Assembly (NCBI GenBank): GCA_017938145.1
Contig: JAGBCB010000010.1
Coordinates: 1-64,000, forward strand
Source of the DNA: Lachnospiraceae bacterium
GTDB taxonomy: Bacteria > Bacillota > Clostridia > Lachnospirales > Lachnospiraceae
Length of the DNA: 64,000 nt
Direction of reading: 5' to 3'
Shown: positions 2,978-26,022 of the stretch, in pieces
How the letters are laid out: each line of letters begins with the position of its first letter
How positions within the stretch are numbered: the first letter of the stretch is position 1
Program-made: the position numbers and the translations under genes
Notes under the pieces: model-generated
Told to the model about the DNA's origin: nothing
The model's database searches: none
The model's input: only the letters and a program-made list of their open reading frames with translations

Positions 2978-2980
2978 AGC

Positions 2981-3052
2981 GTTGCTGACTGGAATTGAAC
3001 CAGCGGCCCCTTGCTTCGGAGGCAAGTGCTCTATCCCCTGAGCTACAGCAAC
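2981..3052 (-). tRNA. tRNA-Arg (anticodon CCG)
   Basis: Read on the minus strand, the 72 nt fold as a full cloverleaf: acceptor GTTGCTG/CAGCAAC, D arm GCTC/GAGC, anticodon stem CTTGC/GCAAG with loop CTCCGAA, a 5-nt variable loop, and T arm GCTGG/CCAGT with loop TTCAATT. The anticodon CCG reads CGG (Arg). The 3' CCA is not encoded and must be added after transcription. Confidence 0.95.
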
Positions 3053-7081: not shown

Positions 7082-7110
7082 TTGACACAAAAAGTTGAAA
7101 ATGATAGTAT
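7082..7110 (+). promoter_or_regulatory. Promoter of the large serine-rich-repeat protein
   Basis: TTGACA (7082-7087), 17 bp, TAGTAT (7105-7110). The leader to the ATG at 7214 is about 95 nt and A/T-rich. I see no clear riboswitch in it. Confidence 0.7.
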
Positions 7111-7213
7111 TTTTATTAGTATAATTATTAGTGTGTCTATGACTATACAATGCATCATGGTAAAGCAGTAAAGTGAACAAAATTGGATAAATTTGAATGT
7201 GGAGGAACAAAGA

Positions 7214-10200
7214 ATGAAGAAGAAAGTCAACGACATTTTAAAGGGTGTTGCCGGTGCAGGTGTTGCGCTGGGTGGTGCAGCTGCCTTCGGGGAGATGGAC
7301 GTGGTATATGCTTCTGAGTTGGAGGATGTAACAAGCCAAAATAATGCAGAAGAATATGACCTTGAAGACATGTATGCCAGCCTTGCGGCTAACTCCGAGT
7401 TGACGAATGATGAAAAAGAAGCATTGGAGTATGTTTCTACTGCATATAAGAACAGCTTAGCTAATAGTACTGCAGAGTCTGAATACATAAAAGAGTCCCA
7501 AGCAGCGTATACAAGTGCTGTTGAGGTGTATGGTTCTGAAACGGCGGATGTATTGTTAAATGAGACACAGGGAGATGTATACACTGTTGATGAAAGTGGC
7601 GATTTTCTTGTGGTAAAAAATGGTACATACACTTACTATTATAATAACGGTGCTGACAGTGTTACTCTGAATGCTGGAAATATATTAACAGCCGATAATA
7701 GTAATTTAGCTAAAAACCCGAACGGTGTAATTTCCGGAATTAGTTTTGATGGCTTTTATCTGAATGGAAATGGAAAGATTGTATCTATAGCTACACATAT
7801 TGACTATAATCCAAATTACGGAAACAAGGTTTTCATTGATGGTAAATTGTGTTTAGTAGATGAAAATGGATATTGGCAGGTTGTTAGTATCAATTTGGGA
7901 AATGGAAAGACTGCTACTGTAAATTATGAGGGTAAAGTAGGTGCATCTTTCTGGAGAGAAGGCTGGGAGGCTGTCCAAATTAATGGAACCAGATATTTCC
8001 TGGATGCTTCGACACTTGACGGTAATAATGCTTCCTTTGGCGTATTTAATTCCTGGGGAGATAAGGATTGGAATGTTGATGAATTTTCTTATACATTATT
8101 ATCTGGGGAAAATAAATATAAACAAATTGAGAATGTAGTTTTAAATGAACAAACTGCATCCGATGAACAAGACGCATTTGAAGGAAGCCAGGCATCTATT
8201 GCAAATTCGGATAGCTTGGTTGAAAGTACGATTGATAGTTACTCTGAGAAATTTAGTTTAGTGGAAAGCACAGCAGATAGCCAGAGCTTAGTTGAAAGTA
8301 CAGCGGACAGTTTAGCAGATAGTACAGCGGACAGCCTTGCGGATAGCACTGCAGACAGTTTGGCAGACAGTACTGCAGACAGTCTTACAGATAGCACAGC
8401 AGACAGTTTGGCAGACAGTACTGCAGACAGTCTTACAGACAGTACAGCTGATAGTTTAGCAGACAGCACCGCAGACAGTTTAACAGACAGTACCGCAGAT
8501 AGCCTTGCAGATAGCACAGCTGATAGTTTAGCAGACAGCACCGCGGATAGCCTTGCAGATAGCACAGCAGACAGTTTGGCTGACAGTACAGCTGATAGTT
8601 TAGCAGACAGTACTGCAGATAGCTTGGCAGATAGCACAGCTGATAGTTTAGCAGACAGCACAGCGGATAGTTTAGCAGATAGCACAGCAGACAGTTTGGC
8701 TGACAGTACAGCTGATAGTTTAGCAGACAGTACTGCAGATAGCTTGGCAGATAGCACAGCTGATAGTTTAGCAGATAGTACCGCAGACAGCCTTGCGGAT
8801 AGCACTGCAGACAGTTTGGCAGATAGTACCGCAGACAGCCTTGCAGACAGTACCGTAGATAGCTTGGCAGATAGCACAGCTGATAGTTTGGCTGACAGTA
8901 CAGCTGATAGTTTAGCAGACAGTACTGCAGATAGCTTGGCAGATAGCACAGCTGATAGTTTGGCTGACAGTACAGCGGATAGTTTAGCAGATAGCACAGC
9001 AGACAGTTTGGCTGACAGTACAGCTGATAGTTTAGCAGACAGTACTGCAGATAGCTTGGCAGATAGCACAGCTGATAGTTTGGCAGACAGCACTGCGGAT
9101 AGCTTGGCAGATAGCACAGCGGATAGTTTGGCTGATAGCACAGCAGACAGTTTGGCTGATAGCACTGCAGACAGTTTGGCAGATAGTACCGCAGACAGCC
9201 TTGCGGATAGCACTGCAGACAGTTTGGCAGATAGTACCGCAGACAGCCTTGCGGATAGCACTGCAGACAGTTTGGCAGATAGTACCGCAGACAGCCTTGC
9301 AGACAGTACCGTAGATAGCTTGGCAGATAGCACAGCTGATAGTTTAGCAGATAGCACAGCAGACAGTTTGGCAGACAGTACCGCAGATAGCCTTGCAGAT
9401 AGTACCGCAGACAGTCTTACAGACAGTACAGCTGATAGTTTAGCAGATAGTACAGCGGACAGCCTTGCGGATAGTACCGCAGACAGTTTGGCAGACAGTA
9501 CTGCAGACAGTCTTACAGATAGTACAGCTGATAGTTTAGCAGACAGTACCGCAGACAGTTTGGCAGATAGTACCGCAGACAGTCTTACAGACAGTACAGC
9601 TGATAGTTTAGCAGATAGTACAGCGGACAGCCTTGCGGATAGTACCGCAGACAGTTTGGCAGACAGTACCGCAGATAGCCTTGCAGATAGCACCGCAGAC
9701 AGTTTGGCTGACAGCACTGCTGATAGTTTAGCAGATAGCACAGCAGACAGCTTGGAAGATAGTACCGCAGATAGCTTGGCAGATAGTACCGCAGATAGCC
9801 TTGCAGATAGCACAGCTGATAGTTTAGCAGACAGCACAGCGGATAGTGCGGCTGACAACTTAGCAGATAGTACCGCAGACAGCTTAGCTGACAGCACAGC
9901 AGACAGTTTGGCTGACAGCACTGAGGATAGTTTAGCAGATAGCACAGCAGATAGCTTAGCAGATAGCACAGCGGATAGTGCGGCTGACAACTTAGCAGAT
10001 AGTACCGCAGACAGCTTAGCTGACAGCACAGCAGACAGTTTGGCTGACAGCACAGCAGACAGTTTGGCTGACAGCACAGCAGACAGTTTAGCAGATAGCA
10101 CAGCTGATAGTTTAGCAGACAGCACTGTGGATAGTTTAGCAGATAGCACAGCTGATAGTTTAGCAGATAGCACAGCAGACAGCTTGGCAGACAGTTCCGC

Positions 10201-12187
10201 AGATAGCCTTGCAGATAGCACAGCAGACAGTTTGGCAGACAGCACTGTGGATAGTTTAGCAGATAGCACAGCGGATAGCTTAGCAGATAGCACAGCAGAC
10301 AGTCTTACAGACAGTACCGCAGACAGTTTGGCAGATAGCACTGCGGATAGTGCAGCTGACAACTTAGCTGATAGTACTGCAGAAAGTCTTACAGACAGTA
10401 CAGCAGATAGCTTAGCAGATAGCACAGCTGATAGTTTAGCAGATAGCACAGCTGATAGTTTAGCAGACAGCACCGCGGATAGTGCAGCTGACAACTTAGC
10501 AGATAGTACCGCAGACAGCTTAGCAGATAGCACAGCTGATAGTTTAGCAGACAGCACCGCGGATAGTGCAGCTGACAACTTAGCAGATAGTACCGCAGAA
10601 AGTCTTGCAGACAGTACCGCAGACAGCTTAGCAGATAGCACAGCTGAAAGTTTAGCAGACAGCACCGCGGATAGTGCAGCTGACAATTTAGCAGATAGTA
10701 CCGCAGACAGCTTAGCAGATAGCACAGCGGATAGTTTAGCAGACAGTACCGCAGACAGCCTTGCAGATAGCACAGCAGATAGTGCGGCTGATAACTTAAA
10801 GGATAGCACCGCAGAAAGTCTTGCGGACAGTACTGCAGACAGCCTCGCAAACAGCACAGCTGATAGCACTGCAGATAGTCTTGCAAATAGCGAAGCAGAC
10901 AGAAATGCAAGCAATCAGGCAAGTCAGGATGCAAGCACCTCTGCTAGCCAAGCAGCATCCGCAGAAGCTAGTACGGCAGCAAGTGAAGCAGCGTCTACAG
11001 CGGCTAGTAATGCGGCTAATGAATCTAGCCAGAGTACTGCAATTAGTGAATATGATAGTACCAGTGCTTTAGTAAGTGCCGGTGAAAGCACTGCGGCAAG
11101 TGAACGCGCTAGTGCTTGGGCAAGTCAGCAGGCATCTGCAGCAGCAAGTGAAGCAGATAGCTATAGAGCAAGTGTTGCAGCTAGTGAAACAAACAGCTAC
11201 TGGGCAAGCGTTGCAGCTAGTGAAACAAACAGCTACTGGGCAAGCGTTGCAGCAAGCGAAACAGCATCTACCGTAGCAAGCGAAGCAGCATCTACCGCAG
11301 CAAGCGAAGCAGCATCCACTGCAGCAAGCGAAGCGGCATCTACTGCAGCAAGTGAAGCAGCATCCACTGCAGCAAGTGAAGCAGCATCCACTGCGGCAAG
11401 TGAAGCAGCATCCACTGCAGCAAGTGAAGCAGCATCCACTGCGGCAAGTGAAGCAGCATCCACTGCAGCAAGTGAAGCGGCATCCACTGCAGCAAGTGAA
11501 GCAGCATCTACTGCAGCAAGCGAAGCGGCATCTACTGCAGCAAGTGAAGCAGCATCCACTGCAGCAAGTGAAGCAGCATCCACTGCGGCAAGTGAAGCAG
11601 CATCCACTGCAGCAAGTGAAGCAGCATCCGCTGCAGCAAGCGAAGCAGCATCCACTGCAGCAAGCGAAGCAGCATCCACTGCAGCAAGTGAAGCAGCATC
11701 CACTGCAGCAAGTGAAGCAGCATCCACTGCAGCAAGTGAAGCGGCATCTACTGCAGCAAGTGAAGCAGCATCCACTGCAGCAAGTGAAGCAGCATCCACA
11801 GAAGCAAGCACAGCGGCAAGCGAGAGCGAAAGCGCAAGCGAATCCGCAGCAGCAAGCGAAGCAGCAGACCAGTTTACCGAAATTGACGATGAGGATGTTC
11901 CTCTTGGTGGTCAGCCGGGCGATGTTACCGAAATCGAAGATGAGGACGTTCCTCTCGGCGTTATCGATGATGAAGACCTGGTAGACTTAGAAGATGAGGA
12001 TGTTCCTTTAGCCGGCGGTGTTAAGATGAACGGCGGTGAAGGCGAAGGTCAGAAGACCTGGTATTGGTGGATTCTTGCATTGATTGCAGCTGTAACCGGT
12101 GGCAAGATTGCATATGATAAGAAAAAAGCTATGAAGAAGGCAACTGAAGAAGCTAAGGAATCTGTAAATGAGACCGAAGAAAAGTAA
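7214..12187 (+). CDS. Giant serine-rich-repeat surface protein (aSec substrate 1)
   Basis: This 1657-aa adhesin-like glycoprotein candidate starts at the ATG after GGAGG; an in-frame TTG at 7193 has no ribosome site. Order: short basic N-region, glycine-rich hydrophobic core (GVAGAGVALGG) with likely cleavage after VVYA; a non-repetitive domain (about 30-340) as candidate binding region; about 100 copies of an 8-residue DSLADSTA unit (about 350-1225); an Ala/Ser linker; a second 8-residue array ASEAASTA (about 1340-1540); three DEDVPL(G/A) motifs; and a transmembrane segment (WYWWILALIAAV) with a Lys-rich tail. There is no LPXTG and no KxYKxGKxW. Position directly upstream of secY2-asp-secA2-gtf marks it as their cargo; the Ser/Thr repeats are expected O-GlcNAc sites (inference). 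Confidence 0.9.
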   Translation: MKKKVNDILKGVAGAGVALGGAAAFGEMDVVYASELEDVTSQNNAEEYDLEDMYASLAANSELTNDEKEALEYVSTAYKNSLANSTAESEYIKESQAAYTSAVEVYGSETADVLLNETQGDVYTVDESGDFLVVKNGTYTYYYNNGADSVTLNAGNILTADNSNLAKNPNGVISGISFDGFYLNGNGKIVSIATHIDYNPNYGNKVFIDGKLCLVDENGYWQVVSINLGNGKTATVNYEGKVGASFWREGWEAVQINGTRYFLDASTLDGNNASFGVFNSWGDKDWNVDEFSYTLLSGENKYKQIENVVLNEQTASDEQDAFEGSQASIANSDSLVESTIDSYSEKFSLVESTADSQSLVESTADSLADSTADSLADSTADSLADSTADSLTDSTADSLADSTADSLTDSTADSLADSTADSLTDSTADSLADSTADSLADSTADSLADSTADSLADSTADSLADSTADSLADSTADSLADSTADSLADSTADSLADSTADSLADSTADSLADSTADSLADSTADSLADSTADSLADSTADSLADSTVDSLADSTADSLADSTADSLADSTADSLADSTADSLADSTADSLADSTADSLADSTADSLADSTADSLADSTADSLADSTADSLADSTADSLADSTADSLADSTADSLADSTADSLADSTADSLADSTADSLADSTADSLADSTADSLADSTVDSLADSTADSLADSTADSLADSTADSLADSTADSLTDSTADSLADSTADSLADSTADSLADSTADSLTDSTADSLADSTADSLADSTADSLTDSTADSLADSTADSLADSTADSLADSTADSLADSTADSLADSTADSLADSTADSLEDSTADSLADSTADSLADSTADSLADSTADSAADNLADSTADSLADSTADSLADSTEDSLADSTADSLADSTADSAADNLADSTADSLADSTADSLADSTADSLADSTADSLADSTADSLADSTVDSLADSTADSLADSTADSLADSSADSLADSTADSLADSTVDSLADSTADSLADSTADSLTDSTADSLADSTADSAADNLADSTAESLTDSTADSLADSTADSLADSTADSLADSTADSAADNLADSTADSLADSTADSLADSTADSAADNLADSTAESLADSTADSLADSTAESLADSTADSAADNLADSTADSLADSTADSLADSTADSLADSTADSAADNLKDSTAESLADSTADSLANSTADSTADSLANSEADRNASNQASQDASTSASQAASAEASTAASEAASTAASNAANESSQSTAISEYDSTSALVSAGESTAASERASAWASQQASAAASEADSYRASVAASETNSYWASVAASETNSYWASVAASETASTVASEAASTAASEAASTAASEAASTAASEAASTAASEAASTAASEAASTAASEAASTAASEAASTAASEAASTAASEAASTAASEAASTAASEAASTAASEAASTAASEAASTAASEAASAAASEAASTAASEAASTAASEAASTAASEAASTAASEAASTAASEAASTAASEAASTEASTAASESESASESAAASEAADQFTEIDDEDVPLGGQPGDVTEIEDEDVPLGVIDDEDLVDLEDEDVPLAGGVKMNGGEGEGQKTWYWWILALIAAVTGGKIAYDKKKAMKKATEEAKESVNETEEK
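8263..10895 (+). repeat. 24-bp tandem coding repeat (DSLADSTA)n
   Basis: About 100 imperfect 24-bp units such as gatagtttagcagacagcac encode the octapeptide. Synonymous changes (agt/agc, gca/gcg/gct, tta/ttg/ctt) vary between copies, and blocks of several units recur almost unchanged. Occasional S-A-A-D-N-L insertions break the octad in the second half. The pattern fits repeated expansion and contraction by recombination. Confidence 0.95.
11245..11800 (+). repeat. 24-bp tandem coding repeat (ASEAASTA)n
   Basis: About 23 near-identical 24-bp units (gcaagtgaagcagcatccac and variants) form a second array with the same period as the first but a different peptide. It is more homogeneous than the first, suggesting a more recent expansion. 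Confidence 0.93.
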
Positions 12188-12228
12188 TTTTTCAGTAGAC
12201 GTAATATAGCTGAAATAATATAAAGAAT

Positions 12229-12270
12229 AATAAGTGACCACTTGGTTTCAGGTGGTCACTTATTTTATTT
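12229..12270 (+). terminator. Terminator after serine-rich protein 1
   Basis: A 13-bp stem (AATAAGTGACCAC, 12229-12241, with its complement at 12252-12264) is followed by TTTATTTT. Nearly the same hairpin follows serine-rich protein 2. Confidence 0.9.
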
Positions 12271-12303
12271 TGATAAACAAAGAGTTAATTGTTGTTTTCT
12301 GTG

Positions 12304-12332
12304 TTGACAAGCTGAAAGAATAGTGCTACTGT
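12304..12332 (+). promoter_or_regulatory. Promoter of serine-rich protein 2
   Basis: TTGACA (12304-12309), 17 bp, TACTGT (12327-12332). The leader is about 85 nt and includes short palindromic A/T stretches near 12350-12380. Confidence 0.65.
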
Positions 12333-12423
12333 GAAGATGGGGTCTTATAAGTATGCTTACATATGCTTAATATATGTAAATGAAGTAATCAAGCGAAATT
12401 GATTATACTACGGAGAAATGTAT

Positions 12424-13953
12424 ATGGAGAAGGGAGTAAACAATGCCTTAAAAGGTCTTGCCGGCGCCGGTATTGCTCTTGGCGGAGTGGCTGCGTTTGG
12501 TGAAGCAGATGTGATTTATGCACAGGAATATGCAGAACAGCAGAGTAGTGAAAGCAGCATAGAAGAATACGCTGCATCTGAAACTTATCAGGTGGAACTT
12601 ACAGAAACAGATGCTGATGATTCTGCTTCCGAAACAGATACTTCAGCTGTAACATCATCTAAAACAAAAAACACAGTGGCTGAAAACTCCGGTTCGCCAT
12701 ATTATTATAACGGAAATTTCTGGGGAAATGATGCTTATGTTTTAGCAAAATATTTGTTATATGCTTGCTTGAGATGGGATTCCAGTGTCTTTTGGGATGC
12801 ATGGAGTGCATTAATTTCATATTATAATTCAACCGGTAATGAGGAAGGAAAGCAAGAAGCAGAAGATTGGTTTGAGGATAAAGAAGAAGAGATTGAGAAT
12901 ATTGCCAAGCCAACAGCAACGCCAACTCCGAGTCCGGCGCCAACAGTAGCGCCAACGGCAACTCCAACGCCAACAGTGGCCCCAACGATAGCACCAACAG
13001 CCACCCCGGCACCAACAGTGGCCCCAACGATAGCACCAACAGCCACCCCGGCACCAACAGTTGCTCCAACGGTAGCACCAACAGCCACCCCGACACCAAC
13101 AGTTGCTCCAACGGTAGCACCAACAGCCACCCCGGCACCAACAGTTGCTCCAACGGTAGCGCCAACGGCAACCCCAATGCCAACAGTTGCTCCAACAGTT
13201 GCTCCGGTAATTATTCCGACTATAAATACTTCCGATGTGGCAAGTCAGTCTGCCTCCGTAGCTGCCAGTGAATCCGCAGCAGTAAGTGAATATACATCTG
13301 TAAGTCAGTCTGTAGATGCAAGTATGTCTGCAGCAACAAGTGAATATGCATCTACCAGCCAGTCTGTGGAAACAAGCTTGTCTGTAGCAGCAAGTGAATA
13401 TGCGTCTGAAAGCGAAAGACAGAAAGCGGATTCTGTTACCAGTCAAAAGGAGAAAGATGTTCAGTCTGCAGCAACAAGTGAATCTATAGCTGCAAGCCTT
13501 TCGGCAGTAACCAGTCAGTCTGCAGCAACAAGTGAATCCGTATCGGAACAGTTGTCTGTGGCAGCAAGTGAATCTGTGGCTGCAAGCACTGAAGCAAGTG
13601 AAGCAACAAGTGAAATTGTATCAGAAAGCGAATCTGCAGCAGCAAGCGAGACCGGAACTATCGATGAATCCGAATTGTCTGATGAGACAGTAAATAGATT
13701 TACAGAAGTGGAAGATGAAGAGGTTCCGCTTGGTGTAATTGATGAAGATGATTTAACAGAATTAGAGGATGAAAAGGTTCCGTTAGCATTCGGTGTAACT
13801 ATGGATGCTGAGGATGCGGCTGCTGTTAAATGGTATCTGCCGGCCGGATTAATCGCTTTACTTGCTGTTATCGTTGATAGAATTGCACATATCAGAAAGA
13901 AAAATGCTGAAAAGAAAGCGGAGAAGATTAGAAGACAGATGTATCGCAAGTAA
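12424..13953 (+). CDS. Serine-rich surface protein with Pro/Thr stalk (aSec substrate 2)
   Basis: This 509-aa paralogue of the upstream giant protein starts at ATG 12424, 8 nt after GGAG; the ATG at 12418 is too close to that site. The signal region VNNALKGLAGAGIALGG closely matches that of protein 1. An acidic, Ser-rich region with a small Trp/Tyr-rich part (about 78-145) follows. Next come about 100 residues of APTVAPTATP-type repeats, then a Ser-rich region (about 270-425) with SQS, AASE and SEY units. The end has EDEEVPLG and EDEKVPLA motifs, one transmembrane segment (YLPAGLIALLAVIV) and a Lys/Arg tail. Likely a second glycosylated surface protein exported by the adjacent SecA2/SecY2 (inference). 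Confidence 0.88.
   Translation: MEKGVNNALKGLAGAGIALGGVAAFGEADVIYAQEYAEQQSSESSIEEYAASETYQVELTETDADDSASETDTSAVTSSKTKNTVAENSGSPYYYNGNFWGNDAYVLAKYLLYACLRWDSSVFWDAWSALISYYNSTGNEEGKQEAEDWFEDKEEEIENIAKPTATPTPSPAPTVAPTATPTPTVAPTIAPTATPAPTVAPTIAPTATPAPTVAPTVAPTATPTPTVAPTVAPTATPAPTVAPTVAPTATPMPTVAPTVAPVIIPTINTSDVASQSASVAASESAAVSEYTSVSQSVDASMSAATSEYASTSQSVETSLSVAASEYASESERQKADSVTSQKEKDVQSAATSESIAASLSAVTSQSAATSESVSEQLSVAASESVAASTEASEATSEIVSESESAAASETGTIDESELSDETVNRFTEVEDEEVPLGVIDEDDLTELEDEKVPLAFGVTMDAEDAAAVKWYLPAGLIALLAVIVDRIAHIRKKNAEKKAEKIRRQMYRK
12898..13215 (+). repeat. Pro/Thr-rich coding repeat (APTVAPTATP-like)
   Basis: Imperfect repeats of about 54-60 bp (gcaccaacagccaccccggc and variants) encode an extended Pro/Thr/Ala stalk. 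Adjacent copies are nearly identical at DNA level. Confidence 0.85.
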
Positions 13954-14000
13954 GGAATAGCATTTTTCTGTAGACAATATAGTTAAAATAATGGTAAAAT

Positions 14001-14036
14001 AATAAGTGACCACTTGATTATAGGTGGTCACTTATT
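14001..14036 (+). terminator. Terminator-like hairpin between serine-rich protein 2 and secY2
   Basis: The same 13-bp stem as at 12229 recurs here (14001-14013 with 14024-14036), but the T run is interrupted (TTATTTACTATC). It is probably leaky, and no separate promoter is evident before secY2, so partial read-through may feed the aSec operon. Confidence 0.7.
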
Positions 14037-14064
14037 TACTATCATCACAAGGCAGGATAAAACA

Positions 14065-15270
14065 TTGAAGTATGGGTTTCAAAAAGAAAATTTAATGCTT
14101 TATAAAGTACTTTTTATGCTGTTTACGGTTGTCGCCTATATTATCGGAAAAAGTCTGCCGTTGTATATGATTGATGTGGAAGCTTATGCGGATGTTGCGA
14201 TTTCTGCGGAGGAAGTATTGTTGCAGGCCATCCGCGGCGATAGATATCAGTTTTCCTTATTTGCCCTCGGAATATCTCCGTATATGGTTTCAAGTGTTGC
14301 ATCCCAGTTGATTATTGCTCTCAAGAGTTCTGAAGCCAAAGCAAGAATTACACCCCAAAAAAAGAACCAATTTACAGTGCAAACTACATTGCTATTAGCT
14401 GTTTTTATGGCTGTGATACAGGTCCCGAAGCTTCATTTTAAAGTAAGCGGAGAACAGTTGTTGGTAGCACAGTGTATTGCCGGAATGGAAATGGTTGCCG
14501 GTGCAATGCTGATTATCTGGCTTTCTGACCGTAATAAAAGATACGGTATTGGTGGTCAGTCAGCGCTTATTTTCATCAATTTGTTTGACAGCTTTACCAC
14601 CAACTTAAAAGGACATACATCAAATCAGATGTTGGTTGCTTTATTATTAACTTTGATGTCGGTTTCTGTAATGGCAATTTTTGAGAATACGGAAAAGCGG
14701 ATTCCTCTGCAACGTGTATCTATCCATAATATCTATGCAGACAAAAACTACCTGGCTATAAAAATGAATCCTATCGGTGTTATGCCGGCGATGTTTTCTA
14801 TGGCGGTTTTTACCTTGATGAAGCTTATTGTGGAATTTGTCGGCTGGTTTGTTCCGGAACATTCAACCTGGCTCTGGTGGAGTGAAAACATGGTTTTAAA
14901 CAAGCCGTTTGGAATTTGTATGTATGTTCTTGGACTATATATTTTATCTATGGTTTTTTCCAGAGTTTTCTTGAGTCCTCAGGAAACAACGGAACAGTTT
15001 TTAAAGAATGGCGACAGTATTGTAAACATACACGCAGGAAAAGACACGAAAAGATATTTATCAAAAACGATTAATCGGTTATCCTTCTTAAGCGCTACAA
15101 TGATGGCAGCTTGTCTTGCATTGCCTTTAATATTACAAATGCAAGGGTATATGGAAGGTTCCTTGGCTGCGCTTCCTTCTTCCGCTATGTTTTTAGTTGG
15201 TATTGTATGTAATATTTTCAGGGAATTTGCAGCAGTAAGAGATTTAGAAGGATATGAACCGTTTCTTTAG
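14065..15270 (+). CDS. secY2: Accessory Sec translocase channel SecY2
   Basis: This 401-aa polytopic protein has about ten hydrophobic segments and a SecY-like N-terminus (LYKVLFMLFTVVAYIIGKSLPLY). It would form the membrane channel through which SecA2 pushes the serine-rich proteins. It is shorter and more divergent than housekeeping SecY (about 435 aa), as SecY2 usually is. Start: a TTG at 14065 behind GGCAGGA is preferred. The longer frame begins inside the terminator hairpin, and ATG 14095 is an alternative. It is first of a tightly packed plus-strand cluster, with asp1 starting 8 bp after its stop behind GGAGGA. Confidence 0.88.
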   Translation: MKYGFQKENLMLYKVLFMLFTVVAYIIGKSLPLYMIDVEAYADVAISAEEVLLQAIRGDRYQFSLFALGISPYMVSSVASQLIIALKSSEAKARITPQKKNQFTVQTTLLLAVFMAVIQVPKLHFKVSGEQLLVAQCIAGMEMVAGAMLIIWLSDRNKRYGIGGQSALIFINLFDSFTTNLKGHTSNQMLVALLLTLMSVSVMAIFENTEKRIPLQRVSIHNIYADKNYLAIKMNPIGVMPAMFSMAVFTLMKLIVEFVGWFVPEHSTWLWWSENMVLNKPFGICMYVLGLYILSMVFSRVFLSPQETTEQFLKNGDSIVNIHAGKDTKRYLSKTINRLSFLSATMMAACLALPLILQMQGYMEGSLAALPSSAMFLVGIVCNIFREFAAVRDLEGYEPFL

Positions 15271-15278
15271 GAGGAACT

Positions 15279-18378: not shown

Positions 18379-18873
18379 ATGCTGGGAGAAAAATGGATAG
18401 TATATTGGAGTGAATATGCTTCTGATACCTATTTATACGGTTCAAAAATTACTTTTCATAAAAAGGATGACGTAGAATTCCAGAATTTACTAATGCCACC
18501 CGGAACAATTATTAAGCAATGGTATTCTAAGACTAATTTTCAAATGCAGAAGATTGAGCCAACGTTGCCGATTATTGACGGAGAAACGGAATACCAAATC
18601 ACATTAAATATTGTCACAAATGAAAATGAAACCTGTCTCGGCCGGTTGGTTTACTATGACAGATATGGTGTAGAGGCAGGAAGTCTTACGTTGCGTGATA
18701 AGGAAACTCTATTCCGGTGTCCGTTGAAGACGTACAGCTATCGGCTTCAGCTGATTAATGGTGGTGTTACAAATTTTCATTTTCACTCGGTGATAATACA
18801 GGAAGTGCTTCATGGGACAGAAGAAAACAATAAAAAATTTAAGAAGAGAATTAAAAAAAGTAAGAAGCAATAA
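18379..18873 (+). CDS. asp3: Accessory Sec system protein Asp3
   Basis: This small (164 aa) beta-rich protein starts at the base after the asp2 stop. In streptococci Asp3 is a carbohydrate-binding-like scaffold that bridges the Asp1/Asp2 complex and SecA2. Visible features are an IIDGETEYQITLNIVTNE strand pair, a YDRYGVE turn shared by Asp3 proteins and a very basic C-terminal tail (KKFKKRIKKSKKQ). It overlaps secA2 by 62 bp. Assignment relies on size, order and these short motifs. Confidence 0.85.
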   Translation: MLGEKWIVYWSEYASDTYLYGSKITFHKKDDVEFQNLLMPPGTIIKQWYSKTNFQMQKIEPTLPIIDGETEYQITLNIVTNENETCLGRLVYYDRYGVEAGSLTLRDKETLFRCPLKTYSYRLQLINGGVTNFHFHSVIIQEVLHGTEENNKKFKKRIKKSKKQ

Positions 18874-21148
18874 AGATTATATGGCATCTCTGTCGGATGA
18901 GGAGCTTTCCGGGCTGACAATACAGTTTAAAGAACGCCTTAGAAATGGAGAAAGTTTGGATTCACTTTTGCCGGAGGCTTTTGCTGCTGTTTGCGAGGCG
19001 GACTATCGTATCTTGGGAAAAGCTCCTTATGATGTTCAGGTATTAGGTGCTATTGCTATGCATCAAGGAAAATTAGTGGAAATGAACACCGGCGAAGGGA
19101 AAACACTGGTTGCAACGATGCCGCTTTATCTGAATGCCTTAACCGGAAAGAGTACTATTTTAATGACCAGTAACTCTTATCTGGTACTGCGCGATGCCGA
19201 AGAAATGGGACAGGTATATAACTTTATGGGACTTACCATAGCTGCAGGTGTCAGAGCCAGAGAAGAGGAGCAGTTTTCAAACGAAGATAAAAAAAAGGTT
19301 TATGCAGCAGATATTGTATATACTACACATGGAACATTTGGATTTGATTATTTACTGAATAATTTAGTTACATCAGCGGAGGATCGTTTTTTACGCGAGT
19401 TATATTACTGTATTTTAGATGAGGCAGATTCTGTGCTTTTAGATAGTGCTCAGACTCCGTTGGTTATTTCTGGTTTTCCAAGAGTACAGTCAAATTTGTA
19501 TGAGATGGCAGATTTCTTTGTTACTACGCTTGTAGAAGGAAGAGATTATGAGCATGAAGATCAAAAGGTATGGTTAACAGAAGATGGAATAAGATACGCA
19601 GAGACCTATTTCGGTATTGATAATTTTTATGGAGAGGAATTTTTTGAAATTAATCGCCATGTAACATTGGCTCTTAGGGCTCATGTTTTGTTTGAACCCG
19701 AAAAAGATTATGTAGTTAATAATAAACAGGAACTGCAACTTTTAGATAATGGCTCCGGTCGAGCAATGTCAGGAGTTAAACTGCGTGGTGGACAACATCA
19801 GGCTATTGAACAAAAAGAAAAGCTGGAAGTATCCAGAGAAAATCGTTCGATGGCATCTATTACATATCAAAATTTATTCCGGCTGTTTCCGAAAATGTCC
19901 GGCATGAGCGGAACTATTTCTGATGCAGAGGAGGAACTTAGTTCTTTATATGGTGTTAAAATGGTGGTAATACCTCCGAATCGTCCGTTGATGAGAAAAG
20001 ATTTAGATGATTTTTATTTTAAAAACAGTAGACAGCAGCTTAGTGCCGCTATGAATACTATCGCAGAGGTTCATTCCACCGGTCAACCATTGCTGATTGT
20101 GGTTTCGACCATTGGAGAGACAGAATTGGTTTCTAAGATGTTAATGGAAATGCAGATTCCGCATAGTGTGTTAAATGCAAATAATGCCTTTTGGGAGGCG
20201 GAGATTATTAAAGAAGCAGGACAGCTAAATGCTGTAACAGTCGCCACAGGTATGGCAGGACGCGGTACTGATATTCGGTTAGGCAAAGGCGTAAAAGAAT
20301 TGGGAGGACTAGCAGTTATTGGCATCGGAAGAATGGTAAATACGCGGCAGGAGCGCCAGGCAAGAGGACGTGCAGGACGTCAAGGAGATCCTGGTTTTAG
20401 CAGATTCTTTGTTTCACTTGAAGATGAAGTAGTCAAGAATAGCGGAGTGATAAAAAAAGAAAAGTATGAAAAAAAGAATTTGAAAATCCGCAAGAGAAAA
20501 CTCAGAAAAATAATCAATACAGCTCAGAAGATAAATGAAGAGAAAGCTATTAATTCCAGGCAAACCGCAATGGATTACGATCAGGTTTTACAGCGTCAAC
20601 GTTCGTTAATTTATGCTACCAGGGATCGTATGATGGATGGTGAGGAATTGGAAATGAAGAAAATTCTTCAGGTTGCAGGGGAGAACATCAATTGTTTTCT
20701 AAATGAGAAATCGGAATTGACGGAACAGACGATAAGAAGATATATATTGGATAATTTGTCTTACCGTTTGGATAAAGAATTTTTTGAATGTTCGTGTACT
20801 GATAAAACAGAAATGCTACGTTATCTTAGGGATTTGGTAGTTGACGGCTTGAGAGAACAGGAAAACAAACTTGGCAGTGAAACGGTCATGGGTGAATTCA
20901 TGAGGGTAGCAACTTTGCAGGCAATTGATGAGGCATGGATCGAGCAAGTGGATTATTTACAGCAGTTGCAGTATGCAGTTGCGGGACGGTCTACAGCGCA
21001 GAGAAACCCAATATATGAATACCAGAAGGAAGCGTTACTGTCATTTCGAAAGATGGAGAAAACAATCCAAAGAAACATGGTTCGGAATATTTTACTTAGT
21101 ACTGTTTCTTGGGACAAAGACGGGAATATGAAAATACTTTATCCGTAG
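18812..21148 (+). CDS. secA2: Accessory preprotein translocase ATPase SecA2
   Basis: This 778-aa DEAD-motor ATPase drives export of the serine-rich glycoproteins. Walker A is EMNTGEGKT, Walker B is ILDEADSVLLD, and motif VI is near QERQARGRAGRQGDPG. The preprotein cross-linking domain and helical scaffold are present, while the C-terminal Cys-rich SecB-binding tail of housekeeping SecA is absent. Length and missing tail fit SecA2. The ATG at 18812 follows CAGGAAG, overlapping asp3. It is the only SecA in the window. Confidence 0.95.
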   Translation: MGQKKTIKNLRRELKKVRSNKDYMASLSDEELSGLTIQFKERLRNGESLDSLLPEAFAAVCEADYRILGKAPYDVQVLGAIAMHQGKLVEMNTGEGKTLVATMPLYLNALTGKSTILMTSNSYLVLRDAEEMGQVYNFMGLTIAAGVRAREEEQFSNEDKKKVYAADIVYTTHGTFGFDYLLNNLVTSAEDRFLRELYYCILDEADSVLLDSAQTPLVISGFPRVQSNLYEMADFFVTTLVEGRDYEHEDQKVWLTEDGIRYAETYFGIDNFYGEEFFEINRHVTLALRAHVLFEPEKDYVVNNKQELQLLDNGSGRAMSGVKLRGGQHQAIEQKEKLEVSRENRSMASITYQNLFRLFPKMSGMSGTISDAEEELSSLYGVKMVVIPPNRPLMRKDLDDFYFKNSRQQLSAAMNTIAEVHSTGQPLLIVVSTIGETELVSKMLMEMQIPHSVLNANNAFWEAEIIKEAGQLNAVTVATGMAGRGTDIRLGKGVKELGGLAVIGIGRMVNTRQERQARGRAGRQGDPGFSRFFVSLEDEVVKNSGVIKKEKYEKKNLKIRKRKLRKIINTAQKINEEKAINSRQTAMDYDQVLQRQRSLIYATRDRMMDGEELEMKKILQVAGENINCFLNEKSELTEQTIRRYILDNLSYRLDKEFFECSCTDKTEMLRYLRDLVVDGLREQENKLGSETVMGEFMRVATLQAIDEAWIEQVDYLQQLQYAVAGRSTAQRNPIYEYQKEALLSFRKMEKTIQRNMVRNILLSTVSWDKDGNMKILYP

Positions 21149-21162
21149 GGAGGATGCTATTG

Positions 21163-21639
21163 ATGGAAGCAGAATCGGTATATCAATATCTTATTGACCG
21201 ACAAGAGTTTCGTTTGTTAGAAGAGAAAGATTTGTATTATGTATTTTTACCTGTACCGGAGTATTGGGACATTCGAGTGGATGGATATAATGGTGCAGTG
21301 ACCGATATGGGAGAAAAGAAAGCAATCATATATTTTAAAGCTCCTTCTGAAAAACGTTATGTACAAAGAGTAGAGTGGATTACAACTACCGGAACTGTAT
21401 ACAAAATTGATTACTACGGAAAGTATGGTTATGCATATTGTACGGAGTATCTGAATTCAGATGGAAGCAGTCGAATGAAGGAATACTATACTTCACAGCG
21501 TAAGCTGGTAGCAAGTAAGAATTCCAGCAATGGTGTAATTACTTTATTTGAGCAGGGGCATGTGGCGGCTATGTATGATTCGGAAAGTGTATTAATAAAA
21601 GAGGTAAGTGAGGAAACAGATGGCGATATATGTATTTAA
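21163..21639 (+). CDS. Stand-alone GtfB-like N-terminal (beta-meander) module
   Basis: This 158-aa protein starts at the ATG behind GGGAGGA, 14 bp after the secA2 stop. It aligns by eye with the N-terminal third of the GtfB encoded at 24673: PVPEYWDI matches VPEYWEIS, KKAIIYFKAPSEKRYVQRVEW matches the ERAKIFYSEPKHKRLVRVVDW region, and YYGKYGYAY matches YNRYGALYAR. It ends where GtfB continues with VTGDIIL. In GtfA/GtfB this beta-rich extension binds the acceptor adhesin. The frame is intact and overlaps the next gene by 20 bp, so it looks like a functional small partner rather than debris. A truncated relic cannot be excluded. Confidence 0.75.
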   Translation: MEAESVYQYLIDRQEFRLLEEKDLYYVFLPVPEYWDIRVDGYNGAVTDMGEKKAIIYFKAPSEKRYVQRVEWITTTGTVYKIDYYGKYGYAYCTEYLNSDGSSRMKEYYTSQRKLVASKNSSNGVITLFEQGHVAAMYDSESVLIKEVSEETDGDICI

Positions 21640-23158
21640 TCTTTTAGTTGGATATTATACCGGTGGCCTTGATACAGCACAAGGGGTCAGAAGCAGATAT
21701 CTCAGAAAAACAAAGCATACTGTTAAGTACATATTTGACACAGTTCCCACTTATCGCGAACTTTTGGTCTATCATAATCTGGGGATTTGTGTGGAAGAAA
21801 TGCTTTGTGCACAATTATTCATGACAGGAAATTACAATTTTGCAGGAAATATTAAAGTGTCTGATAAATTGCAGGAGCTGGTTGAAAAATTACAGGTCAA
21901 TAAGACTGTCGAAATAGGAAATAGTTTAAGATTATATCACGAGAACCAACTGGTGGCTTCCATAGAGCGAAAAGAGAATAAAGAATTCCTTTACCAAATC
22001 TCATATTATCATAATAATGGGAAGCTTATTTTGACGGAGTGGTATGGGGACAGTTTGCTTTACACAGATCATTTTGTGACAGCGGAAAAAGATGGGAAAA
22101 AGTATGCAAAGAAGGTAAAAACCTCTTTTTTTGATAAAAAGGGAACCAACGTTTATGATTGCTTATATGATATAAACGGTGAAGAGCTATATGTATATCC
22201 GGATGGACAAAGTTACAGTAAAACCCAATGGTTTTATAAGTTTATTCAGACTCTGAAATTATCAGAGGATGATATTGTTATTTTAGAACGTCCGTCTTTC
22301 AATTCCTATGTTCAACCATTGTTTCAGTATGGAGGAAAAGCAAAAAAAGTAGTGGTATTCCATTCGGGGCATTATTTTGAGCGTGGGGAAGATACCGGTT
22401 CTTTATATATGAACAGAGAATATTATTACTGGTTTAAGTATTCGGAAAAGATAGATTTGATGATTGTCTCCACAGAGGAACAAAAAGAAGATATTCGAAC
22501 TAAGCTACTGGAATTTTCAAAAGAAATACCAAGAATAGAGGTAGTGCCGGCAGGAGGGCTTGCTGACATTAAGAGAACAAAAGAGTTTAGGAAACCGCGT
22601 TCCTTAGTAACTGTGTCAAGGCTTGTTCCGGGTAAAAAGGTAGACTGGGTAATTGAAAGTGTTATAGAAGCCAGAAAGGGGATTCCCGAACTGACTCTTG
22701 ACATTTATGGAGAAGGAAAAGCTACATCCGCATTAAAAGAGCTTGTACATCAGTATAACGCAGAAGAATATATCCACTTCATGGGGCACTGTGATGTGAG
22801 TGAAGTGTACAAGAATTATGAGGGTTATATTTCGGGTTCTGTTTTTGAAACATTGGGACTTTCTGTGATGGAGGCTATTGGCTCAGGAAATGCTGTTATA
22901 GGTTTAGATGCCCGATACGGTAACCGGGTACTTATTGAGGATGGAAAGAACGGAAGATTGATCAAATTCTCACCGGATGATATTCAGAATCCACAAAGAG
23001 TAAAAGAAATTATTTCGGATATGGCAAAGTGTATTGTAGAAGTGTTTTCTGATGAAGAAATGCTTCTGGCTTATCAGGAGCATTCCTATCAGATTGCCGA
23101 ACGGTTTTTAAATGATAAAATCGAAAAGAAGTGGATTGACGTTATTGAATCACTATAA
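21620..23158 (+). CDS. Second GtfA-like glycosyltransferase (GT4) of the aSec locus
   Basis: This 512-aa protein starts at ATG 21620 behind GTGAGG. It is a paralogue of the GtfA at 23207 with the same layout: N-terminal Rossmann half, an inserted beta-meander (about 60-210), then a GT4 catalytic half. The E-x7-E motif (ETLGLSVME) that binds the nucleotide sugar is present, as is VSRLVPGKKVDWVIE. The N-terminus NLLVGYYTGGLDTAQGVRSR replaces the IGWASSGVEYAQAYR of true GtfA. It is probably a cytoplasmic glycosyltransferase for the serine-rich proteins, perhaps paired with the preceding mini-GtfB (inference). Sugar specificity is unknown. Confidence 0.85.
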   Translation: MAIYVFNLLVGYYTGGLDTAQGVRSRYLRKTKHTVKYIFDTVPTYRELLVYHNLGICVEEMLCAQLFMTGNYNFAGNIKVSDKLQELVEKLQVNKTVEIGNSLRLYHENQLVASIERKENKEFLYQISYYHNNGKLILTEWYGDSLLYTDHFVTAEKDGKKYAKKVKTSFFDKKGTNVYDCLYDINGEELYVYPDGQSYSKTQWFYKFIQTLKLSEDDIVILERPSFNSYVQPLFQYGGKAKKVVVFHSGHYFERGEDTGSLYMNREYYYWFKYSEKIDLMIVSTEEQKEDIRTKLLEFSKEIPRIEVVPAGGLADIKRTKEFRKPRSLVTVSRLVPGKKVDWVIESVIEARKGIPELTLDIYGEGKATSALKELVHQYNAEEYIHFMGHCDVSEVYKNYEGYISGSVFETLGLSVMEAIGSGNAVIGLDARYGNRVLIEDGKNGRLIKFSPDDIQNPQRVKEIISDMAKCIVEVFSDEEMLLAYQEHSYQIAERFLNDKIEKKWIDVIESL

Positions 23159-23206
23159 GAGAAACTATCCATTTGGCAGTGTATGCTGTCGGAAAGGAAT
23201 TTTGTT

Positions 23207-24700
23207 ATGATTTACAACTTTAACTTAGGTATCGGCTGGGCCAGCAGCGGTGTGGAATATGCGCAGGCGTATCGGGCGAAGATGTTGCGTGCCATCGGAG
23301 CAAAGGCAAAATTTATTTTTACGGATATGTTCCCAAGGGAAAATATCCAGCATATGACGGAGAACATTGGGTTCTTAGACTCTGAAGTAGAGTGGCTGTA
23401 TACTTTTTTTACAGATACCAAGATTGCACCGGTAACCTATACCTTAAAACAGCTGGAGGCGACCTTTGGTACAACGGAATATACATTTTCCAGAGACGGG
23501 AAAACTGCAAAGTATACCTTTCCGGGAAACAATAATTTTTATACGGTTTATATGGTGGATGAGAACTCAGACAGAGTGCATCGTGTGGAACTGGTATCCA
23601 ATGGTTTTCTCATCCGTAAGGATTATTTTACCTATTGCAGAATTTATTCCGAGTATTATGCACCGTTAGATAATAAGGCACATATGTATCAGCGCCGCTT
23701 CTTCAATGAAGACGGAAGTATTGCTTATGAAGAAATTAATGATAATGATGTGGTAACCTACCGGTTTCCAGACAAAATTCTCTGCTCCAAAGAAGAATTT
23801 GTGGGCTATATGGTGTCAAAGTTAAATCTTACCAAGGATGATATTGTCATTATCGACAGAACCACCGGTATCGGACAGGCAATCCTTATGAATGTCCGTC
23901 CGGCAAAAGTGGGTATCGTGATTCATGCAGACCATTTCAGTGAAGGAAGCAGTGACGAAACCAACATTCTTTGGAACAATTATTATGAATATGCCTTCTC
24001 GCAGTACGACAAAATTGATTTCTACCTGGCTTCCACGGATGCCCAGAATCAGCTGATGCGGGAGCAGTTTGAGAAATATTTGGGCGTTACTCCGAACGTA
24101 ATTACTGTTCCGGTGGGTGGTTTAAAAGAGTTAAAATATCCGTATAAGAGACGGCCGCATTCCCTAATAACCGCGTCCCGTCTGGCAACGGAAAAGCATG
24201 TGGACTGGGTTGTGGAAGCAGTGGCAGAGGCAAGAAAGACCATTCCTGATATTACCCTTGATATTTACGGTAATGGTGCAGAGGAAGGAAAAATCAAAGA
24301 AGCTATTGAGCGTCTTGGCTGCACCGGCTGCATTAAGTTATGCGGCCAGCAGGATTTAACAGAGGTTTATCAGAGCTATGAAGCTTATATAGCAGGTTCT
24401 ACCAGTGAAGGCTTCGGATTAACCTTGATGGAAGCAATCGGTGCCGGTTTGCCGATTATCGGTTTTGATGTACGCTACGGCAACAAGAATTTTGTGGACC
24501 AGGGAAAGAATGGCTATAAGATTCCGGTGCATGATAAAATGGAAAGTAAAGAGCGCATTGCAAAGTTGGCAGAATGTATTGTAAAACTGTTTACAGAAGC
24601 CGATTTGGAAGCGTTTCATGCGCATTCCTATAAAAAAGCAAAGGAATATCTCACAACAGAGGTGGAGAAACGATGGGAAACACTGTTAAAGACAATATAA
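23207..24700 (+). CDS. gtfA: Accessory Sec O-GlcNAc transferase subunit GtfA
   Basis: This 497-aa GT4 enzyme starts at the ATG behind GGAAAGGA. Its N-terminus contains IGWASSGVEYAQAYRAK and FIFTDMFP, which match GtfA of streptococcal serine-rich adhesin loci very closely. A beta-meander insertion and the E-x7-E motif (EGFGLTLME) follow. With GtfB it adds the first GlcNAc to Ser/Thr of the adhesin in the cytoplasm. It overlaps gtfB by 28 bp, so the two subunits are translationally coupled. The codon style is visibly more GC-rich than in the genes before 23160. Confidence 0.93.
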   Translation: MIYNFNLGIGWASSGVEYAQAYRAKMLRAIGAKAKFIFTDMFPRENIQHMTENIGFLDSEVEWLYTFFTDTKIAPVTYTLKQLEATFGTTEYTFSRDGKTAKYTFPGNNNFYTVYMVDENSDRVHRVELVSNGFLIRKDYFTYCRIYSEYYAPLDNKAHMYQRRFFNEDGSIAYEEINDNDVVTYRFPDKILCSKEEFVGYMVSKLNLTKDDIVIIDRTTGIGQAILMNVRPAKVGIVIHADHFSEGSSDETNILWNNYYEYAFSQYDKIDFYLASTDAQNQLMREQFEKYLGVTPNVITVPVGGLKELKYPYKRRPHSLITASRLATEKHVDWVVEAVAEARKTIPDITLDIYGNGAEEGKIKEAIERLGCTGCIKLCGQQDLTEVYQSYEAYIAGSTSEGFGLTLMEAIGAGLPIIGFDVRYGNKNFVDQGKNGYKIPVHDKMESKERIAKLAECIVKLFTEADLEAFHAHSYKKAKEYLTTEVEKRWETLLKTI

Positions 24701-26022
24701 TATTACTTTTGGACAATTATGGGGATGACAGCAAAAAGCTTCATAATTCCTTCAAATTGGCAGGAAAAAACTATCCGGTGTTTGTCATTGAAGAGGATGG
24801 CTTTCTGCCGGAGGACGTAACCTCTGTGTTCAGCTATTTCCTCGGAGATTTCAAGAAGGCAAAAGGTGTTCCGGGCAGACCGTTGTATTTTAATCAGATT
24901 AAGGTACCGGAATATTGGGAAATCAGCGCAAATAACAGCGGCGGAAGTGTGCATGATTTAAATAAAGAACGTGCAAAAATCTTTTATTCCGAGCCAAAAC
25001 ATAAGCGTCTGGTAAGGGTGGTAGACTGGTATGATGAAAGGGGAACAGTTTGTTTCAGTGACCATTACAACCGCTACGGTGCCTTATATGCCAGAACAAT
25101 TTTTAATGCGAAAGGACAGAGAGTAAACAAATCTTTCTTTTCTGCGGATGGAAAAGAAGTAGTAATGGAAAACTACGTAACCGGAGATATTATTTTAAAT
25201 GACGGTGACTTGGTTAAAATATTCCATACAAAGAAAGAATATATTGCATATGTTCTGGAAAAAGCCGGCTATGCAGACTACAGAATTTTCTTCAATACTT
25301 TGTCAACCTCGTTCTTTGTTTCACAGTTTTTGGGTGACAACGGAAAGGGTGATGTTTTATTCTGGCAGGAACCAATCAATAATGAGATTCCGGGCAATAT
25401 GCGGAGTATATTAAACGGAACATCAAAGCGTGCGGGTCGTGTAATGGTGCAGCGCAGGGATTCTTACGAAAAAATGCTTGCTCTTGGTGCTCCGGCAGAC
25501 ATTATCAGTCCTCTTGGCTTTGTATATCCTTTCAAAAAAGAAAATCAGGGTAAAAAAGAAGCTCTCATTTGTACCAATTCCGACAATATTGCCGAAATCA
25601 ATAAGATTGTGGAAGCCCTTCCGGAGGTTCATTTTGCAATTGCAGCCTTAACGGAAATGTCTTCCAAGCTTATGAGTATGGATCAATATAAAAATGTCAG
25701 TCTGTACCCTGGTGTGAAGATGAAAGTACTGGAGGAATTATTTGAACAGGCAGATATTTATCTGGATATCAATCATGAGTCGGAGATTGTATCTGCGGTA
25801 GAAAAGGCGTTCCTGCATAATCATTTGATTTTTGCATTTAAGGAGACACTTCATAATGCGCGCTACGTGCCGCAGGAACACATTTTTGTAAAAGACAAGG
25901 CAAATGAACTTGTGACGGATTTAAAGTCTGTTATGGGCAACACAGCGCTTTTAAAGGAGCGTTTGGAACGGCAACGGGCATTTGCAATGTTAGAAACCAA
26001 GGAAACGTATTTAGGTATTTAA
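24673..26022 (+). CDS. gtfB: Accessory Sec glycosylation chaperone GtfB
   Basis: This 449-aa protein is the partner that stabilises GtfA and binds the adhesin substrate. The N-terminal half carries family landmarks: VIEEDGFLPEDV, YFNQIKVPEYWEI, VDWYDERG and VTGDIIL. The C-terminal half is a GT-B-like fold without the E-x7-E catalytic motif, as expected for a non-catalytic subunit. The start overlaps gtfA behind AGGTGGAG. The next gene, fbp, follows after 18 bp in the same direction and may be partly cotranscribed. Confidence 0.92.
   Translation: MGNTVKDNIILLLDNYGDDSKKLHNSFKLAGKNYPVFVIEEDGFLPEDVTSVFSYFLGDFKKAKGVPGRPLYFNQIKVPEYWEISANNSGGSVHDLNKERAKIFYSEPKHKRLVRVVDWYDERGTVCFSDHYNRYGALYARTIFNAKGQRVNKSFFSADGKEVVMENYVTGDIILNDGDLVKIFHTKKEYIAYVLEKAGYADYRIFFNTLSTSFFVSQFLGDNGKGDVLFWQEPINNEIPGNMRSILNGTSKRAGRVMVQRRDSYEKMLALGAPADIISPLGFVYPFKKENQGKKEALICTNSDNIAEINKIVEALPEVHFAIAALTEMSSKLMSMDQYKNVSLYPGVKMKVLEELFEQADIYLDINHESEIVSAVEKAFLHNHLIFAFKETLHNARYVPQEHIFVKDKANELVTDLKSVMGNTALLKERLERQRAFAMLETKETYLGI

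Follow-up and report, generated by a model that had tools for sequence, protein, structure and literature searches.

An accessory Sec locus in a Lachnospiraceae genome and the short, glycine-core signal of its serine-rich cargo

A 64,000-nucleotide stretch of DNA from a Lachnospiraceae bacterium (GenBank assembly GCA_017938145.1, contig JAGBCB010000010.1, positions 1 to 64,000; hereafter the window) carries a complete core accessory Sec locus in a Lachnospiraceae genome, every named part of which, as proposed in an initial annotation, is confirmed by sequence analysis. From sequence comparison it is probable that this is a working accessory Sec system of a Lachnospiraceae-centred branch, and that a glycine core alone, without the KxYKxGKxW region, addresses the cargo of this branch. 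The machine belongs to a known kind of exporter for sugar-coated surface proteins, described mainly from streptococci, and is, judged by its genes, ordinary; the new part is the cargo signal, and both the address and the tail of the cargo appear unusual. To our knowledge, the reason for the long, odd signal of accessory Sec cargo is not settled. A branch that seems to be without the N-terminal part of that signal, and has the three routing glycines, constitutes a natural deletion experiment, which shows which part to test. The findings also widen the range of the system to Lachnospiraceae of gut and rumen, and a 35-position model of the signal provides a handle for finding cargo.

The accessory Sec locus and its branch

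Eleven tightly packed genes lie on the + strand at 7214-26022 in the order SRR1 and SRR2 (serine-rich repeat, SRR, cargo proteins), secY2, asp1, asp2, asp3, secA2, a GtfB-like open reading frame (ORF) of 176 amino acids, gtfA1, gtfA2 and gtfB; the ORF listing and translation agree with the gene order and single strand first described, and all core genes of the locus are open and full length. Window proteins were judged by curated NCBIfam cut-offs and Pfam domain cut-offs. The Asp1, Asp2, Asp3, SecY and SecA domains of Pfam are all above cut-off, and the NCBIfam models are passed by Asp1 (TIGR03713, 429 bits; cut-off 136), Asp2 (TIGR03712, 536; cut-off 211), Asp3 (TIGR03711, 124; cut-off 67) and SecA2 (TIGR03714, 978; cut-off 930). 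The profile check suggested in the initial annotation is thus passed by all three Asp proteins in both collections; for SecY2 and GtfA/GtfB its outcome is divided, with GtfA2 and GtfB above their cut-offs and SecY2 and GtfA1 below those of NCBIfam. Asp2 also matches both solved Asp2-type chains, 6oyc and 6lnw.

SecY2 models are the best matches of the SecY2 protein, which scores 153 bits with the housekeeping SecY model TIGR00967, and its predicted identity is settled by the SecY tree. Quick SecA and SecY trees were built from 54 rows each, and a careful SecA2 tree from 33 chosen rows; the trees contain no SecA2-only protein. In the SecY tree, SecY1 stands apart (SH-like approximate likelihood-ratio test, SH-aLRT, 100) and the window SecY2 lies in the Lachnospiraceae-centred branch. 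In the careful SecA2 tree, the window protein falls within the same branch (100/98), with SecA1 apart (100/100). These trees reject a housekeeping origin of SecA2 and SecY2, the grouping that had been named at the outset as fatal to the annotation, and they support the distinct SecA2 branch that it had postulated. The branch also includes Olsenella porci (Atopobiaceae) and Pseudoramibacter porci (Eubacteriaceae), to which the quick SecA tree adds an Oscillibacter metagenome-assembled genome (MAG); this mixed membership suggests transfer between gut lineages. The Olsenella porci genome (L106, L315) is actinobacterial and has the SecA2 of this branch. As a comparison class we used the class of genome G685 (299 genomes), whose reading as Bacilli rests on the look of its signals. 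Its SecA2s do not form one clade (approximately unbiased test, p-AU 0.046) and have long branches; this is a marginal hint, unsafe given the long branches, that the Lachnospiraceae-centred branch arose among them.

The short cargo signal

All of the first eight cargo N-termini examined have a short signal, laid out as a basic start, usually L-K-G, then G-x3-GG and an alanine before the likely cut. The signal model, built from 20 rows, has four invariant positions, namely the three glycines of G-x3-GG and this alanine; G-x3-GG is found in both window cargo proteins and in 20/20 model rows. Within a family sample of 397 genomes, in which PF16929 over its cut-off served as the marker for Asp2, the signal is matched at E ≤ 1e-9 in 11 of 13 Asp2-positive genomes versus 0 of 384 others (Fisher p 9e-20), where the best match has E 0.014. 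Four of the strongly matching genomes (G150, G264, G292 and G312) gave no rows to the model, and the window's genome (G000) has exactly two matches, SRR1 and SRR2. A scan of species genomes for relatives found 155, of which the best 80 loci were retained, including Pseudobutyrivibrio, Roseburia, Agathobacter and Acetatifactor. Fourteen of 15 genomes behind relative loci match the signal at E ≤ 0.01, several of which gave rows or were already counted; the one miss is the Oscillibacter MAG.

Exact G-x3-GG occurs in 45 of 47 non-identical signals of at least 25 bits, and in none of the 47 does KxYKxGKxW precede the core in frame. A count independent of the model gave a similar picture: G-x3-GG lies in the first 140 amino acids of 25 of 26 serine-rich ORFs (at least 400 amino acids, closed 5' end), the exception being an N-masked ORF, versus 27 of 500 low-serine control ORFs. 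The KxYKxGKxW profile, TIGR03715, is above cut-off in 0 of the 13 Asp2-positive family genomes, and the extended atypical signal of about 90 amino acids that this model describes is absent from SRR1 and SRR2.

The contrast with the comparison class was drawn from 25 genomes with a long Asp2 match, out of 29 with any, four partial matches being excluded. KxYKxGKxW is above cut-off in 22 of these 25. With the short-signal model, 12 of them yield 18 matches at E ≤ 1; of these, 14 (from 10 genomes) follow a KxYKxGKxW match in the same frame, at a distance of 69-93 bases. Because of this arrangement, the core of the short signal is, by sequence, taken to be the same element as the second half of the comparison-class signal. 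One comparison group (f146) has signals without the exact G-x3-GG triad. Part of the text of PMC5578698 reports that the GspB substitutions G75L/G79A/G80C re-route export to general Sec; the invariant G-x3-GG spacing, which both window cargo proteins have, is identical to that of G75/G79/G80 as given there. Since the spacing is the same, the branch appears to keep the routing part of the GspB signal, without the part before it. The initial annotation had credited the window with its own substrate signals: this is right in that the long N-terminal KxYKxGKxW part is absent, and wrong in that the glycine core is kept from signals of the streptococcal type.

Proposed working and alternative explanations

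By analogy with the known system, GtfA2 and GtfB would, in the cytoplasm, add the first N-acetylglucosamine to Ser/Thr residues of the arrays, Asp2 would O-acetylate the sugars, and Asp1-3 together with SecA2 would deliver the cargo to SecY2, which would pass it through the membrane. To this we add that the cargo of this branch would need no more than the glycine core to reach SecA2/SecY2. Once exported, the cargo probably either stays attached through its C-terminal segment or is processed by a sorting enzyme, because few tails have LPXTG. Export, glycosylation and surface fibres are predictions.

Several points weigh against this reading. SecY2 falls below its NCBIfam cut-offs (NF009082, 241 versus 353; TIGR02920, 215 versus 250), as do GtfA1 and the 176-amino-acid ORF (Table 1). 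Housekeeping SecA and SecY were not found in the source assembly, which is 78% complete and in 72 contigs; among 15 genomes searched, SecA is above cut-off in 14, with the window's genome as exception, and SecY in 13, with the window's genome and G358 as exceptions, and because most of these genomes have both, we put the gap down to incompleteness of the assembly. The limit of E ≤ 1e-9 was chosen after the gap in the matches was visible, 7 of the 11 strongly matching genomes contributed rows to the signal model, and 16 Asp2-negative family genomes have weak matches (E 0.014-0.1). A strong match is missing from two Asp2-positive genomes, G358 and G267, and only for G358 is there an evident cause, a contig end that cuts its locus. 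Exceptions to the exact core within the branch are L318, L105 14091-15965 and Olsenella porci (G-x3-GT). The comparison class has exact G-x3-GG in 5 of 17 extractable non-identical signals, 9 of 26 printed loci having escaped parsing. A membrane anchor is weak, because a 19-residue mean hydropathy of at least 1.6 is reached by 12 of 75 tails, SRR1 not included.

In its length and three-part layout the short signal resembles an ordinary signal peptide, and the known N-terminal KxYKxGKxW region is absent, which would fit an ordinary Sec signal by which the SRR proteins exit through housekeeping SecYEG, the accessory genes serving other cargo or decaying. Such a route is unlikely, since the strong signal is found only in Asp2-positive genomes (11/13 versus 0/384), exact G-x3-GG, present in 27 of 500 control ORFs, does not mark Sec signals in general, and no core gene is interrupted or shortened. 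It is harder still to credit that the SRR proteins carry a long KxYKxGKxW signal hidden by misplaced start codons: the start codons are predicted only, but in the 11 loci, out of 12, that a script resolved, the core is preceded at 15-101 codons by an in-frame stop, the upstream stretches are without the motif, and TIGR03715 is over its cut-off nowhere in the 13 genomes. A hidden upstream KxYKxGKxW was rejected on the strength of these stops and profile negatives. A bolder version of the glycine-core reading holds that G-x3-GG is the complete accessory Sec address and KxYKxGKxW a comparison-class add-on with another job, and that the cargo of this branch has a second, undescribed sorting signal at its C terminus (DE-x-[VT]-PLA motifs, a tryptophan-rich segment and a lysine tail) read by an enzyme other than sortase; taken as a whole, this version is doubtful.

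The glycosylation genes allow two readings as well. GtfA2 and GtfB are the predicted orthologous priming pair. GtfA1 falls into another group of GtfA type, which is present in other loci, in several of them beside a second GtfB-like gene. Among 79 complete related ORFs, only three are shorter than 364 amino acids, all of them copies of the window's own gene; because the others all have at least 364, the truncation of the 176-amino-acid ORF is private to the window's genome among the loci compared. GtfA1 and this fragment probably make up a second pair for glycosylation, reduced in part. A frameshift origin of the short ORF was rejected, since the next gene overlaps its end, so that the missing C-terminal part would not fit. 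Alternatively, the two may work as a second pair in which one partner is minimal and not decaying: GtfA1 aligns lengthwise to the solved Gtf1 (5e9t), genes of its type recur beside GtfB-like genes elsewhere, and both ORFs are open and overlapping. The privacy of the truncation among the 79 related ORFs speaks against such a pair, which is possible, although we lean away from it. Profile searches of the locus revealed no GtfC-like or other extending transferase, and for this reason the product is likely to be a simple glycan.

Relation to known systems

The locus shares core genes, gene order and serine-rich cargo with the accessory Sec systems of streptococci, staphylococci and lactobacilli, some of which also have the glycine core. 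It differs from them in that its cargo signal is without the KxYKxGKxW region, few tails of the branch have LPXTG, its SecA2 and SecY2 lie in a separate branch, and, to judge from profiles, GtfC or another extending transferase is not seen in the locus. With SecA2-only systems such as that of Clostridium difficile, as treated in part of PMC3297441, it has in common that a clostridial bacterium possesses an additional SecA, to which the window locus adds SecY2, Asp1-3 and the Gtf proteins. The canonical cargo described in part of PMC6973325 has an AST domain behind its signal and a large serine-rich repeat region, the latter as in SRR1. It also has an extended signal of about 90 amino acids and an LPXTG anchor, which SRR1 and SRR2 do not have.

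The section of the same review on occurrence names Lactobacillales species among commensals (PMC6973325). Elsewhere, portions of the respective texts name accessory Sec proteins among the genes unique to Pseudobutyrivibrio (PMC6912079) and call Asp1-3 Streptococcus-specific (PMC7676259). In the open-licence literature, as far as the texts were accessible (PMC12001732, PMC7446861 and PMC7219639 included; subscription papers lay outside this scope), neither these loci nor the short signal were found described, and we make no claim that they are unpublished.

Cargo proteins and their tails

The locus was initially placed from 7082; its start is corrected here to ATG 7214, most plausibly the start of SRR1, which is preceded by GGAGG (7201-7205) and by an in-frame stop 15 codons upstream. 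The cleavage site after Ala 33 is predicted from the conserved alanine. For the N-terminal non-repeat region, a prediction from three sequences gave no confident fold (mean predicted local distance difference test score, pLDDT, 44).

The main array of SRR1 has 103.6 copies of its unit, with 77 exact STADSLAD octads, a degree of repetition far outside chance. Alignment of 103 octads shows each of the two serine positions conserved in 100, and the two aspartate positions conserved in 103 and 100; the codons (AGT/AGC, GAT/GAC, ACN) are mixed, a synonymous variation. Because serine and aspartate are kept while synonymous codons vary, we read the octads as probably reflecting selection on the protein pattern, not fresh slippage. 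Long antisense ORFs over the arrays, such as 8239-10914 (-), mirror the repeat. SRR1 matches NF033849 (ser_rich_anae_1) through its repeats only (126 of 650 bits, below cut-off) and NF033073 (LPXTG_double) over model positions 1-32 of 66 only (22 of 48 bits, below cut-off); a Pfam search of SRR1 and three relatives gave below-cut-off matches only. SRR2 has Thr/Pro repeats plus a Ser-rich stretch.

The tails were compared in a set of 75, three of which are not cargo tails (L057 3-464, L089 4679-5218 and the masked L105 ORF). A motif like DE-x-PLA occurs at least once in 64 and at least twice in 51 of the 75, and a tryptophan cluster in 44. An LPxTG-like pattern is found in 5, to which L045 adds APKTG by eye; the LPXTG cell wall anchor is absent in SRR1 and SRR2. 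Over 19 residues, tail hydropathy reaches 1.98 in SRR2 and 1.18 in SRR1, and the Olsenella porci cargo tail is without a hydrophobic end.

Table 1. Features of the accessory Sec locus and its upstream neighbour (window positions)
Feature	Position	Strand	Evidence or remark
SRR1, serine-rich repeat cargo protein, 1657 aa	7214..12187	+	ORF listing, translation
SRR1 short signal	7214..7312	+	basic start, LKG, G-x3-GG; cleavage predicted behind Ala 33
SRR1 non-repeat N-terminal region, possibly for binding	7316..8128	+	remote relatives in L128, L081
SRR1 main repeat array	8297..10783	+	24-bp unit, STADSLAD octads
SRR1 second repeat array	11141..11867	+	Ser/Ala-rich
SRR1 tail	11855..12184	+	three DEDVPL-type motifs, tryptophan-rich segment, lysine-rich end, without LPXTG
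SRR2, second cargo protein	12418..13953	+	ATG 12418 or 12424; short signal and tail motif as in SRR1
SecY2	14014..15270	+	Pfam, NCBIfam, SecY tree; in-frame ATG at 14095
Asp1	15279..16904	+	Pfam and NCBIfam profiles
Asp2	16840..18378	+	Pfam and NCBIfam profiles; GLSMG motif kept
Asp3	18379..18873	+	Pfam and NCBIfam profiles
SecA2	18812..21148	+	Pfam, NCBIfam, trees
176-aa GtfB-like ORF	21109..21639	+	TIGR02919, 83 of 338 bits (below cut-off), model positions 41-169 of 438
GtfA1, second GtfA-type glycosyltransferase	21608..23158	+	TIGR02918, 349 of 575 (below cut-off)
GtfA2, predicted orthologue of priming glycosyltransferase GtfA	23183..24700	+	TIGR02918, 701 (cut-off 575)
GtfB, predicted partner of GtfA	24673..26022	+	TIGR02919, 500 (cut-off 338)
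metA	6045-6950		upstream of locus

The candidate starts of Asp2, in a region without an in-frame ATG, are TTG 16840 from the mechanical list and, by eye, TTG 16867 or GTG 16876.

Distribution and neighbourhood

Asp2 is above cut-off in 13 of the 397 family genomes, a sporadic distribution; G096 has a weak partial match, and the one genome of the same genus that was sampled (G288) gave no Asp2 match. Asp2 passes in 4 of 398 genomes of a phylum sample, the window's genome included and two of them at 29-30 bits, and in 28 of the 299 genomes of the comparison class. Among 92 annotated loci, some of which are the same DNA fetched twice, secY2-asp1-asp2-asp3-secA2 stand in a row in 59, asp2 lies ahead of or apart from the other genes in 22 (Pseudobutyrivibrio and Butyrivibrio fibrisolvens 16/4 being named cases), and 11 are otherwise arranged, most of them cut by a contig end. 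In Pseudobutyrivibrio YE44 (G153), contig C16 carries a cargo gene, a 343-amino-acid ORF without a Pfam match, and asp2 (L020 5876-13918, L300); contig C23 carries secY2, asp1, asp3, secA2, gtfA and gtfB without asp2. Two MAGs each have two different accessory Sec loci (L073/L098 and L095/L097), which may be two systems or mixed bins.

Downstream of gtfB lies an ORF at 26041-27993, which we take to be fbp; it matches no NCBIfam family at E ≤ 1e-10. It shares 96.9% amino acid identity with L040 14808-16760, and the accessory Sec proteins of the two loci share 56-85%; agreement at fourfold sites is 0.58 in the downstream gene versus 0.35-0.46 in the accessory Sec genes. Our reading of this contrast is that the loci may occupy the same site, with faster change or recombination in the locus. 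Carriage on a plasmid was considered and rejected: 16 plasmid records (Staphylococcus, Enterococcus, Lactococcus) match Asp2, all at less than 60% identity, and the downstream ORF has no near match among plasmid records. Two records labelled as S. aureus phages in a phage collection match Asp2 at 36.6% and are perhaps host DNA.

Elsewhere in the window, ORFs for a transposase of the IS3 family lie upstream of the locus (62-1704), a tRNA-Arg at 2979-3052, a UDP-galactopyranose mutase at 32791-33909 and a GT8-family glycosyltransferase at 36845-38617. An open frame of 476 amino acids at 4285-5715 (-) lies antisense inside ligA and is probably an effect of composition.

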